From positions 1 to 64,000 of the forward strand of contig CALKOT010000084.1 in NCBI GenBank assembly GCA_938092015.1: a stretch of DNA of 64,000 nt. The letters are read 5' to 3'. The position numbers were made by a program, and so were the translations under genes. Below, one piece after another: positions 6,840 to 9,977 of the stretch. Numbering within the stretch: the first letter of the stretch is position 1; every line of letters begins with the position of its first letter. The DNA is from an uncultured Paracoccaceae bacterium (lineage in GTDB: Bacteria > Pseudomonadota > Alphaproteobacteria > Rhodobacterales > Rhodobacteraceae). The notes beneath the pieces are model-generated. The model was given only the letters and a program-made list of their open reading frames with translations. It did not search any database and had not been told where the DNA came from.

Positions 6840-6862
6840 GAATTTATATGAGGGAACCTGAC

Positions 6863-8113
6863 ATGGCCGCGCCAGCAGCAAACATGAAGATCGACGCCGA
6901 CCGGCTGTGGGACAGCCTGATGGACATGGCCAAGATCGGCCCCGGCGTTGCGGGCGGCAATAATCGCCAGACCCTGACGGATGAGGATAGCGAGGGTCGC
7001 CACCTGTTCCAGAACTGGTGCAAGGCGGCCGGCATGACCATGGGCCTCGACACCATGGGCAACATGTTCGCCCGGCGAGAGGGGACGGACCCTGACGCAC
7101 TGCCTGTCTATGTTGGTAGTCATCTCGACACCCAGCCGACCGGCGGCAAATACGACGGCGTTCTGGGTGTGCTGAGCGGCCTCGAACTGATCCGGACCCT
7201 CAACGACCTGAACGTCAAAACCAAGCATCCCATCGTGCTCACCAACTGGACCAACGAAGAGGGCACCCGCTACGCCCCCGCGATGCTGTCATCGGGCGTA
7301 TTCGCAGGCATCCACGACGAACAGTGGGCCTATGATCGGGAAGATGCGGAGGGCAAAAAATTCGGCGACGAACTTCAGCGCATCGGTTGGCGCGGTGAGG
7401 AAGCCGTTGGCGACCGCAAGATGCACGCCTTCTTTGAGCTGCACATCGAACAGGGCCCGATCCTTGAAGCGGAAGGCATCGATGTCGGCGTCGTCACCCA
7501 CGGTCAGGGCCTCAGCTGGATGCAGCTGACGATTGAGGGCAGGGACGCCCACACCGGCTCCACTCCCATGCCGATGCGCAGGAACGCAGGCCTCAGCATG
7601 GCGAGGGTACTGGAACTGGTCGACGAGATCGCCCTCTCCCACGCGCCCGATGCGGTCGGCGCGGCGGGGCATATCGATGTCTACCCAAACTCTCGCAACG
7701 TGATCCCGGGTAAGGTAGTTTTCACTGTCGATTTCCGCTCTCCAAACCTTTCGACCATTGAGGATATGGAGGCGCGGCTGAAGGTCGGCGCGCAGAAGAT
7801 CTGCGACGACATGGGCCTGACCGTTGAGTTCGAAAAGGTCGGCGGGTTTGATCCGGTCGAGTTCGACGAAGGTTGCGTGACAGCTGTCCGCAGCGCGGCA
7901 GAGCGCCTCGGCTACACCCACCGCAACCTCGTCAGCGGGGCAGGGCACGACGCCTGCTGGATCAACCGCGTCGCACCGACGGCTATGGTGATGTGCCCTT
8001 GCGTGGATGGGCTGAGCCACAATGAGGAGGAAGAGATTTCGAAGGACTGGGCCGCAGCGGGGACGAATGTGCTGTTCCATGCAGTTGTGGAGACGGCGGA
8101 GATTGTGGGGTGA
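6863..8113 (+). CDS. M20 family amidase, probable beta-ureidopropionase (PydC/HyuC type)
   Basis: A 416-residue zinc-dependent hydrolase of the M20/allantoate amidohydrolase group, predicted to hydrolyse N-carbamoyl-beta-alanine to beta-alanine, CO2 and ammonia as the last step of reductive pyrimidine breakdown. Metal-ligand motifs are visible: GSHLDT near residue 85, TNEEGTRY near residue 129, FELHIEQGP near residue 195 and GAGHDA near residue 361. The dimerisation domain sits between about 210 and 325. The ATG at 6863 is chosen because AGGGA lies seven bases upstream; the ATG at 6848 has no ribosome binding site. It is the first gene of an operon with dihydropyrimidinase and an ABC transporter, which supports the pyrimidine role over a general N-carbamoyl-L-amino acid hydrolase. 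Confidence 0.9.
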   Translation: MAAPAANMKIDADRLWDSLMDMAKIGPGVAGGNNRQTLTDEDSEGRHLFQNWCKAAGMTMGLDTMGNMFARREGTDPDALPVYVGSHLDTQPTGGKYDGVLGVLSGLELIRTLNDLNVKTKHPIVLTNWTNEEGTRYAPAMLSSGVFAGIHDEQWAYDREDAEGKKFGDELQRIGWRGEEAVGDRKMHAFFELHIEQGPILEAEGIDVGVVTHGQGLSWMQLTIEGRDAHTGSTPMPMRRNAGLSMARVLELVDEIALSHAPDAVGAAGHIDVYPNSRNVIPGKVVFTVDFRSPNLSTIEDMEARLKVGAQKICDDMGLTVEFEKVGGFDPVEFDEGCVTAVRSAAERLGYTHRNLVSGAGHDACWINRVAPTAMVMCPCVDGLSHNEEEEISKDWAAAGTNVLFHAVVETAEIVG

Positions 8114-8122
8114 GGAAACGGC

Positions 8123-8152
8123 CAAGCACGGTCCCAGACTTGATCCGGGACC
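8123..8152 (+). repeat. Left inverted palindromic repeat of the GIY-YIG element
   Basis: This 30-base unit (CAAGCACGGTCCC, then the rest to GGGACC) is itself an imperfect palindrome (GGTCCC...GGGACC, 8130-8152) and is an inverted copy, with only three mismatches, of 8475-8504. It begins 9 bases after the stop codon of the M20 amidase gene. Confidence 0.85.
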
Positions 8153-8173
8153 TCGACCATCAAGGCGAACCCG

Positions 8174-8461
8174 ATGCCTTTCTACACCTACATTCTCGCC
8201 TTGCGACCTGGAGGCGCGCTCTATACCGGCGCCGCCAACAATTTGAGTCGCCGAATAGAACAACACAAAGCAGGCGTCGTTCGGGGCTACACCAAAACCT
8301 ACGGCATCAAGACGCTCGTCTGGTTCGAAACGCACGAGACACTCGAAGCTGCATTGCTCCGCGAAAAGCAGATCAAACGCTGGCGCCGCGCATGGAAAGA
8401 CGCGCTGATCATGGAAGCGAACCCGGATTGGCGGGATATCTCTTCAGAAATACAATTCTAA
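8174..8461 (+). CDS. Small GIY-YIG nuclease family protein
   Basis: A 95-residue single-domain protein of the GIY-YIG superfamily (UvrC-N/YhbQ-like). The core shows YTYIL near residue 4 and LYTGAANNLSRRIEQH (residues 16-31), with the catalytic Tyr and Arg, and the metal-binding Glu in ALLREKQIKRW near residue 62. Members are nucleases that cut DNA or structured nucleic acid; the native substrate of the small stand-alone type is not established. The gene lies between two functionally linked pyrimidine genes and is flanked on both sides by inverted palindromic repeats, one of which ends just before the ribosome binding site of hydA. Those palindromes are plausible substrates, but this is inference. 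Confidence 0.88.
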   Translation: MPFYTYILALRPGGALYTGAANNLSRRIEQHKAGVVRGYTKTYGIKTLVWFETHETLEAALLREKQIKRWRRAWKDALIMEANPDWRDISSEIQF

Positions 8462-8474
8462 GCCAACTCATCGG

Positions 8475-8504
8475 GGTCCCGGGTCAAGCCCGGGACCGTG
8501 CTTG
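8475..8504 (-). repeat. Right inverted palindromic repeat of the GIY-YIG element
   Basis: Inverted copy of 8123-8152, here with a perfect outer palindrome (GGTCCCGGG with CCCGGGACC around a TCAAG core). It ends three bases before the AAAGGA ribosome binding site of hydA (8508-8513), so folding of this repeat could influence hydA translation. Confidence 0.85.
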
Positions 8505-8522
8505 CTGAAAGGACATCCCGAA

Positions 8523-9977
8523 ATGACCACCATCATCAAAAACGGAACCATCGTCACCGCCGATCTGACCTACAAGGCAGACGTCGCCATCGACGGCGGC
8601 AAGATCACCGAAATCGGCGAGAACCTCCAAGGCGACAAAAACCTCGACGCCACCGGCTGCTACGTCATGCCCGGCGGCATCGATCCGCACACCCATCTCG
8701 AAATGCCGTTCATGGGCACTTATTCCTCCGATAATTTCGATTCAGGCACCCGCGCCGCCCTCGCTGGCGGCACCACGATGGTGATGGATTTCGCCCTGCC
8801 GAACCCCGAAGAATCTCTCCTCGCCGCGCTCGACCGCTGGCACAACAAATCGACCATTGCGCATTGCGACTATTCCTTCCACATGGCGATCACCTGGTGG
8901 GGGGAGCAGGTCTTTGACGACATGAAAACCGTCGTGCAGGACAAGGGCATCACCTCGTTCAAGCACTTCCTTGCCTACAAAGGCGCGTTGATGGTGAACG
9001 ATGATGAGCTGTTCGCGTCCTTCAACCGCTGCGCCGAACTGGGCGCCATGCCCATGGTCCATGCCGAAAACGGCGACATCGTCGCCGACATGACTGCGAA
9101 ATTGCTGGCGGAGGGGAACAATGGCCCCGAAGGCCACGCCTATTCTCGCCCTCCGCAGGTCGAGGGTGAGGCGACCAACCGCGCGATCATGATCGCTGAC
9201 ATGGCGGGCGTGCCGCTTTATGTCGTCCATACGAGTTGCGAGGAAAGCCACGAAGCCATCCGCCGCGCGCTGCAGAATGGCAAGCGGGTCTACGGCGAGC
9301 CGCTGATCCAGCACCTGACGCTGGATGAAAGCGAGTATTTCAACAAAGATTGGGACCACGCAGCACGCCGCGTGATGTCCCCGCCGTTCCGCAACCAAAA
9401 GCATCAAGACAGCCTTTGGGCCGGTCTGGCCGCTGGCACGCTGCAGGTCGTCGCAACTGACCACTGCGCCTTCACGACTGAGCAGAAACGCTATGGCGTC
9501 GGCGACTTTTCCAAGATCCCGAACGGGACGGGGGGGCTTGAAGATCGGATGCCGATGCTCTGGACCCATGGCGTCGCGACGGGCCGGATCACGATTAATG
9601 AGTTTGTCGCCGTCACATCAACAAACTGCGCCAAGATCATGAATATGTATCCGAAAAAGGGTGCAGTGCTTGTTGGTGCAGACGCCGACCTGGTCGTCTG
9701 GGACCCGGAAAAGGGCAAGACCATCACCGCCGGATCGCAGCAATCAGCCATCGACTATAATGTCTTTGAGGGCAAAGAGGTGAAGGGCCTGCCGCGCTAT
9801 ACCCTGACCCGAGGCCGCGTCGCGGTTGAGGACGGAACGCTGAAGCCGAAAGAGGGCCACGGCGAGTTCGTGAAACGTGAACCAGTGAACGCCGTCAACA
9901 AAGCGTTATCGACGTGGAAAGAACTGACCTCGCCCCGGAAGGTGGAGCGGACGGGCATTCCGGCGAGTGGGGTTTGA
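8523..9977 (+). CDS. hydA: Dihydropyrimidinase (D-hydantoinase)
   Basis: A 484-residue amidohydrolase-superfamily enzyme that opens the ring of dihydrouracil or dihydrothymine (and hydantoins). The binuclear metal site is visible: GGIDPHTHLE near residue 54, the lysine to be carboxylated in FKHFLAYKGALM near residue 150, MVHAENGD near residue 179, VVHTSC near residue 236, and the Asp in VVATDHCAF near residue 315. The start at ATG 8523 is set by AAAGGA nine bases upstream; a TTG at 8502 lies inside the inverted repeat and is unlikely. It makes the substrate of the M20 amidase encoded upstream. Dihydropyrimidine dehydrogenase is not in the window. Confidence 0.95.
   Translation: MTTIIKNGTIVTADLTYKADVAIDGGKITEIGENLQGDKNLDATGCYVMPGGIDPHTHLEMPFMGTYSSDNFDSGTRAALAGGTTMVMDFALPNPEESLLAALDRWHNKSTIAHCDYSFHMAITWWGEQVFDDMKTVVQDKGITSFKHFLAYKGALMVNDDELFASFNRCAELGAMPMVHAENGDIVADMTAKLLAEGNNGPEGHAYSRPPQVEGEATNRAIMIADMAGVPLYVVHTSCEESHEAIRRALQNGKRVYGEPLIQHLTLDESEYFNKDWDHAARRVMSPPFRNQKHQDSLWAGLAAGTLQVVATDHCAFTTEQKRYGVGDFSKIPNGTGGLEDRMPMLWTHGVATGRITINEFVAVTSTNCAKIMNMYPKKGAVLVGADADLVVWDPEKGKTITAGSQQSAIDYNVFEGKEVKGLPRYTLTRGRVAVEDGTLKPKEGHGEFVKREPVNAVNKALSTWKELTSPRKVERTGIPASGV

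Follow-up and report, generated by a model that had tools for sequence, protein, structure and literature searches.

A short GIY-YIG nuclease gene and its flanking inverted palindromes as a probable gene-bearing member of a REP system

Between the genes of an amidase and a dihydropyrimidinase, an uncultured Paracoccaceae bacterium carries a short GIY-YIG nuclease gene bracketed by two inverted copies of a palindromic repeat, raising the question whether enzyme and repeat belong together, in the way REPs and their RAYT enzymes do, or share this intergene by chance. The window analyzed here, i.e., the whole stretch of 64,000 nucleotides, contains the following features at this site:

6848..8113, + strand: hydantoinase/carbamoylase-family amidase (M20), upstream host gene, left edge of the site
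8123..8156, + strand: left arm of the palindromic repeat, with its core palindrome at 8130-8152, CAAGCACGGTC at the outer and ACCTCGA at the inner edge; partly decayed as a hairpin
8174..8461, + strand: GIY-YIG nuclease gene, 95 aa, ATG at 8174 to stop at 8461 (ORF list, PF01541)
8471..8504, - strand: right arm of the palindromic repeat in inverted orientation, with its core palindrome at 8475-8497; folds as a strong hairpin
8523..9977, + strand: dihydropyrimidinase (hydA), downstream host gene, right edge of the site; ribosome binding site likely AAAGGA at 8508-8513

The layout put forward in the original prediction, a 95-residue GIY-YIG gene between inverted palindromes, was borne out at these coordinates, and a recount of the two 30-nt copies named there returned the same 27 of 30 equal bases. 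The flanking inverted repeat measures 34 nt per arm (88% complementary, separation 314 nt). Both arms are palindromic around TCCCGG-CTTGA-CCGGGA and stand in the order left-plus, right-minus, with the inner edges ACCTCGA and TCGGGGT. DNA folding assigned a hairpin of -12.8 kcal/mol (z -3.6) to the right copy and a worn one (-5.6, z -0.5) to the left copy. Searching the 64 kb with a 23-nt pattern for the palindrome, three mismatches being tolerated, gave only the two arms, and none of 100 shuffles contained a match. The hydA gene was recognized by TIGR02033 (607 bits) within an ORF spanning 8502-9977, its start likely being the ATG at 8523; the right arm ends at 8504 and AAAGGA follows 3 nt on, in agreement with the predicted abutment of the right copy on the hydA ribosome binding site.

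Profile searches placed the window nuclease in the GIY-YIG family PF01541 (51.4 bits, E 1.4e-13) and detected no DNA-binding domain beyond it in the 95-aa protein. The protein is a minimal GIY-YIG domain that has kept the conserved residues Y17, R27, and E64, all three invariant in a 29-row alignment. The nearest solved proteins by profile are the UPF0213 members 1zg2 (E 2.5e-15) and 1ywl (E 3.5e-11), followed by UvrC and Slx1. Dunin-Horkawicz 2006 (PMC1564403) placed both UPF0213 structures in a prokaryotic Slx1 family; the accessible part of this work also describes Alphaproteobacteria as being without GIY-YIG homing enzymes and poses the question whether other GIY-YIG members are molecular parasites. 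The own genome holds one short stand-alone GIY-YIG gene, the sole other GIY-YIG match lying within a 647-aa frame that was taken for UvrC. By protein search, a homologue was found in 17 of 61 genomes (the own and 60 others), including 7 of 37 family members. Across 289 alphaproteobacterial genomes, 133 gave a profile match at E <= 0.001, weak matches counted.

Recurrence of the arrangement was examined on pooled loci, comprising 30 homologue loci, 41 loci from many phyla, the loci of the class scan (133 of 289 genomes positive), and further regions. For each ORF the score was defined as the best ungapped inverted repeat between the 250 bp upstream and the 250 bp downstream. A score of at least 18 was reached by 70 of 158 GIY-YIG genes, the window's included, versus 1 of 920 other ORFs of the same loci (Fisher 3e-64) and none of the 303 ORFs of 150 aa or less; at a score of at least 14, the counts were 97 of 158 and 9 of 920. 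An absence of co-occurrence between repeat and GIY-YIG genes, named in the original prediction as the outcome that would speak against it, is not what these figures (70 of 158 versus 1 of 920) depict. The 61 of 158 GIY-YIG genes at which this ungapped 250-bp test detected no inverted repeat at a score of at least 14 count against a REP-system reading. The same holds for one of six loci picked from 35 plasmid-collection records with a homologue: five have strong inverted repeats, and the GIY-YIG gene of R. tumorigenes (L266) has none.

As control genes, drawn from two families of small genes with patchy occurrence, we used the longest ORF across the centre of ParE and DUF559 loci, leaving out 1 of 30 and 9 of 30 loci, respectively (contig ends, long frames, or short flanks). 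ParE genes scored at least 14 in 0 of 29 cases. DUF559 genes did so in 3 of 21 cases, and 2 of 21 reached at least 18, with other palindromes, showing that inverted palindromes are not unique to the GIY-YIG family. These DUF559 (Vsr-like nuclease) genes at L313, L319, and L321 are flanked by inverted palindromes of the types CCCTCTCCC..GGGAGAGGG and CCTCCCCCTC..GAGGGGGAGG and maybe represent a second nuclease/REP pair.

The GIY-YIG family loci with inverted palindromes stem from Alpha-, Beta-, and Deltaproteobacteria, Omnitrophota, and Bacteroidetes. Stem and loop vary between genes and match between the two sides of one gene; the arms at many loci share a loop of CTTGA/CTTGT or GNAN and a tail of CCA(G). 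Hairpins preceded by GTC occur at 2.34 per kb within 300 bp of the gene versus 0.166 beyond 1500 bp, a 14-fold difference, with the density ratios of other tags being 1.3-2.1-fold (GCT, GAC, TCG, CAG) and 6.6-fold (CTG), the latter fitting the complement of the CCAG tail. A GTC directly before a stem of at least 8 bp was found within 300 bp at 92 of 159 loci, at 58 on both sides, the commonest loops having 4-5 nt, and in 99 of 150 cases the tag of the nearest GTC hairpin on a side faces outward. The repeat form of the window would escape this GTC-hairpin scan. Presence of the repeat is not clade-bound (40 changes versus 43.2, sd 2.5, when shuffled), which counts against a REP-system reading. 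Two further types of repeat surroundings were noted: a gonococcal GIY-YIG gene (L269) lies within a cluster of CGTCATTCCCGCGCAGGCGGGAATC repeats, which we take to be dRS3-like repeats of Neisseria, and family f6 GIY-YIG genes at L029 and L184 are flanked by long hairpins with arms of 68 and 82 nt, resembling Rickettsia palindromic elements.

At the window's own place, the junction between amidase and hydA was read in 30 genomes, all of the same family, with the loci taken from an amidase search. The gene is present in six of them (G000, the own genome, as well as G001, G006, G012, G023, and G029). The remaining 24 junctions are gene-free, seven with a gap of only 37-86 bp. In a scan of up to 600 bp, all six junctions with the gene contain the repeat core with no more than 2 of 21 mismatches, whereas none of the 24 gene-free ones does, their best match having 7 mismatches; 5 of the 24 were covered over their first 600 bp only. 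Consequently, gene and repeats go together, at an orthologous place in part of the family, and the empty site suggested for comparison in relatives was found, in 24 of 30 genomes, without gene and without repeat. Two of the filled junctions count against a REP-system reading: downstream of the gene up to hydA, G006 shows no repeat (best 7 of 21 mismatches), and the right copy of G012 is poor at the orthologous locus.

A conserved operon gene with chance repeats was rejected on the basis of the controls (1 of 920 ORFs, ParE 0 of 29, junctions 6 of 6 versus 0 of 24). In a passenger relation, the gene of an ordinary Slx1-like repair nuclease would merely happen to reside in a REP-rich intergene, its flanking repeats serving to terminate transcription or as insulators. 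The near absence of such flanks at other genes (neighboring ORFs 1 of 920, ParE 0 of 29), the loop and stem following the gene, and the joint absence of gene and repeats render it highly improbable, even considering the same position in six family genomes, the diverged paralogues described below, and the right repeat just ahead of the hydA ribosome binding site, all of which would suit it.

Extension of the search to the 4.59-Mb own genome gave 11 matches of the palindrome pattern versus 0 for a reversed control pattern; with two of them in the window, nine copies lie elsewhere. Contigs C66 and C87 of this genome (L012, L013) end inside or beside repeat copies, so that assembly breaks may lead to an underestimated copy number. 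Gene and repeats at this place in all relatives and no copies elsewhere, the second outcome held to contradict the original prediction, is likewise not the picture observed, with 24 of 30 relatives lacking both and nine copies present elsewhere. Exact copies of the core CCCGGRCYTGAYCCGGG number 12 in G000, 14 in G001, 14 in G006, 8 in G012, 42 in G023, and 6 in G029. At least six core copies are found in 6 of 6 family genomes with the orthologue versus 2 of 31 without it (37 genomes; Fisher p 1.2e-5), these two being G013 (52) and G003 (9; 66% complete). G028, hosting a homologue at another place with a different palindrome at its flanks, has 0 copies of the window core. Against a REP-system reading stands G013, in which 52 core copies are accompanied neither by a nuclease homologue (protein search) nor by a short GIY-YIG match; its other GIY-YIG matches lie in a frame of 623 aa and in a protein of 293 aa, the latter, between genes taken by eye for ruvA and ruvB, having been considered as a candidate for the missing enzyme.

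Dispersed copies also occur as short inverted pairs (REPINs). One such pair on contig C4 of the own genome measures 41 nt start to start, has the same outer edge GCACGGTC as the left arm of the window, and shows the orientation that brackets the window gene. G013 represents an orphan REPIN population with many regular inverted pairs 41 nt apart. Ten of them, selected because they are pairs, all measure 41 nt start to start and enclose a 14-nt spacer of varied sequence. All ten have CGTC at the left outer edge, nine have GACG at the right one, and GACCTC and GAGGTC are each seen at the inner edge in nine; the flanks are mostly unrelated by eye, with an upstream stretch common to L343, L345, and L346. 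Three pairs of G023 have the same inner edges and spacers of 16-22 nt. All gene-free REPINs read in the own genome, G013, and G023 thus consist of a left repeat, a 14-22 nt spacer, and an inverted repeat, and as their orientation equals that of the repeats bracketing the gene, the gene occupies the place of the spacer. At some loci (G029 L018, Shinella L268), a whole REPIN is located on each side of the gene.

In the copies compared, outer tags show a tendency to be particular to each genome. G013 and part of the copies in G012 and G029 carry CGTC, the window unit GGTC, G006 TGTC/TGCC, and G023 AGTC. An outward run of at least 5 nt is shared in 42 of 81 same-genome versus 29 of 735 cross-genome comparisons, which are not independent of each other. 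G023 supplies 21 of the 42 matches (21/21), the others coming from G006 (7/14), G012 (7/18), G000 (6/18), and G029 (1/4); G001, with 0 of 6 same-genome versus 10 of 92 cross-genome matches, speaks against a tag match. On the level of single tags, CGCAGTC is present in 7 of 7 sampled dispersed copies of G023 and 2 of 3 at its gene, and GCTGYC in 5 of 7 dispersed copies of G006 and 2 of 2 at its gene. For G039, hosting five paralogues, a search pattern built from its gene-flanking arms revealed 16 copies, of which 10 lie away from GIY-YIG genes; six of the ten have the exact sequence of an arm at one of the genome's own GIY-YIG genes. Mapped on the protein tree, the loop class required 14 changes versus 22.4 (sd 2.0, minimum 17) in 500 shuffles of 70 labelled rows, a comparison that is confounded by taxonomy and builds on few columns, with 77 of 150 inner branches unresolved and no label given to loci that contain several GIY-YIG ORFs. 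Taken together, the joint presence or absence of gene and repeat, their recurrence and co-occurrence, the partly matching tags, and the paralogue-specific repeats strongly support the core idea of the original prediction, a REP/RAYT-like pair with another enzyme class.

Gain or loss among near relatives could be followed at two further places. In the fnrL intergene of Sphingobium plasmids, the unit is present in 7 records (4 identical) and the gene is absent in 4 (86-92% similar); 3 filled and 4 gene-free junctions were read. The gene-free junctions of TYG64 and TYG74 (L272 1129-1157; L273) each host one palindrome with a GTC tag at either end, its two sides corresponding to the outer half of the left and of the right repeat. 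It represents either an insertion target or the scar of a deletion between direct repeats of 8 nt. The junctions of TYG72 and TYG65 have kept no such composite palindrome. Shinella contributed 3 filled records (2 identical) and three empty sites, the latter examined without any repeat match better than shuffles. A precise target duplication was sought at the Sphingobium and Shinella junctions, where intergenic divergence blurs the edges.

A rival reading is homing into a landing pad, whereby REPs spread otherwise and a separate selfish GIY-YIG gene cuts REP palindromes and inserts into them. The doubly tagged palindrome of TYG64 and TYG74 could be the target of such an event, but is also explained as a scar, the stems containing direct repeats of 8 nt between which a deletion may have occurred. 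A short stand-alone GIY-YIG match is likewise lacking in the repeat-bearing genomes that have no homologue (0 of 6, some being incomplete drafts), which would suit this route. However, no repeat awaits the gene at any of the 24 gene-free amidase-hydA junctions (5 part-scanned) or the three Shinella empty sites, and in 4 of 6 genomes the dispersed copies share the gene-flank tags well above the cross-genome level, making this route distinctly unlikely.

The original prediction had gone further in regarding the whole 382-base unit as self-spreading. This part was not supported, with the gene being found at the same place in six relatives (the own genome included) and within-genome paralogues being at most 69% identical (10 genomes). 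In one paralogue pair (L033/L043), local identity is as low as 24 of 67 columns, and the comparison of these 10 genomes revealed no near-identical gene copies at two places in one genome, a further point against a REP-system reading. The multicopy part is the short repeat, not the gene. Given the paralogue divergence and its constant position in 6 of 30 family members, the gene does not look freely self-spreading. A freely jumping insertion sequence consisting of the whole unit was likewise not supported, the within-genome paralogues being at most 69% identical. RAYTs are known for low copy number and mostly vertical inheritance, and the diverged within-genome paralogues recall this low-copy behavior.

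Usually single or few diverged copies and orthologous placement would also be compatible with domestication, i.e., REPs kept by host and nuclease as regulatory hairpins and processed by the nuclease to control the chromosome or expression, any mobility being a relic; for comparison, the RAYT enzyme is termed a domesticated transposase in the accessible text of PMC8266576. Considering the patchy presence in 17 of 61 genomes (protein search), the gain or loss among near relatives, and the regular, alike REPIN sets of G013 and G023, we regard this as rather unlikely.

The physical pairing, the co-occurrence, the matched repeat types, and the joint gain or loss are direct observations. In our view, the GIY-YIG gene and its flanking palindromes are probably a gene-bearing member of a REP system. 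The best reading of the enzyme is that of a REP-associated Slx1-like nuclease, RAYT-like in role and with unrelated chemistry, for which we infer recognition of the repeat, cutting, and mobilization with the resulting spread of REPINs. At the replication fork, the Slx1-like nuclease would recognize its own repeat once this has folded into a hairpin, either single-stranded or as part of a cruciform, and would cut beside or within this REP hairpin. Host repair or replication could then copy or delete the cut pair, whereby non-autonomous REPINs would spread and be homogenized, with the gene itself presumably remaining mostly single-copy and being passed on by inheritance, now and then gained or lost. 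As hydrolytic nucleases, GIY-YIG enzymes do not form the covalent intermediate of an HUH enzyme; consequently, strand joining would need host enzymes.

Generalizing from this proposal, Slx1-like GIY-YIG nucleases combined with joining by host repair would constitute a new class of mobile DNA, as the dedicated enzymes of CGTC-type REPs and possibly of the Neisseria dRS3 type, driving some of the commonest dispersed repeats of proteobacteria; we give this broader claim an even chance. A paper linking GIY-YIG enzymes to REPs was not found in the open PMC literature, with subscription journals and bioRxiv being mostly outside this scope and an earlier report therefore possible; PMC9465073 mentions both GIY-YIG and repetitive extragenic palindromes, the accessible content being unrelated to the link. 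The pairing provides a directly testable candidate for the missing enzyme of CGTC REPs and adds to the candidate origins of REPIN-type repeats a second one of unrelated chemistry. In addition, it suggests a role for a small nuclease family that is widespread (133 of 289 alphaproteobacterial genomes).

In comparison with known systems, the protein itself resembles the UPF0213 or prokaryotic Slx1-like proteins, being a stand-alone minimal GIY-YIG domain related to them by profile; unlike the unit described here, these are grouped with Slx1-type repair enzymes in the literature, the accessible part of PMC1564403 mentioning no link to repeats. GIY-YIG homing endonucleases likewise are small GIY-YIG enzymes tied to a possibly mobile stretch, whereas the window gene has only PF01541 and no NUMOD-type DNA-binding part, and is found outside any intron or intein, between two host genes and with its own repeat on both sides. 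Classical insertion sequences combine terminal inverted repeats and a transposase with near-identical copies and a target duplication; the window gene has inverted repeats at its flanks, and the within-genome paralogues compared in 10 genomes are at most 69% identical.

The REPtrons and REPINs of REP/RAYT systems share with our unit short non-autonomous inverted pairs as well as a nuclease gene bracketed by two opposed palindromes of a kind that is also dispersed in the genome. In contrast, a RAYT is an HUH/Y1 tyrosine transposase and not a PF01541 GIY-YIG enzyme, and its REPs are GTAG-tagged, compared with NGTC or NGCC edges here and GTC-type tags at other loci. A search for the Y1/HUH transposase (PF01797) detected none in nine repeat-bearing genomes (the own and eight others, one being 66% complete), the same search giving matches in 5 of 14 control genomes; a RAYT as the driver was rejected on this absence. 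Repeat-specific enzymes in the presence of several repeat families, described for REP/RAYT systems in the accessible text of Di Nocera et al. 2013 (PMC3733652), are a further shared trait in this comparison.

Another related system is the CGTC REP superfamily, defined in the same work by an unpaired CGTC (or TGTC/CCTC) tag, a stem of 8-9 bp, a loop of 4-5 nt, and a CCA tail, and described there as having no apparent dedicated transposase, a question deferred to later work. The window family has drifted from this form, showing NGTC/NGCC edges, a GTC paired within the stem, and ACCTC in place of the CCA tail, and, in contrast to the superfamily as presented in the accessible part of PMC3733652, which names no associated enzyme, it comes with a GIY-YIG gene. 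Many arms at the loci of its relatives display the GTC tag, the 8-9 bp stem, the 4-5 nt loop, and the CCA tail, and the dispersed copies, inverted pairs, and alphaproteobacterial bias are common to both.
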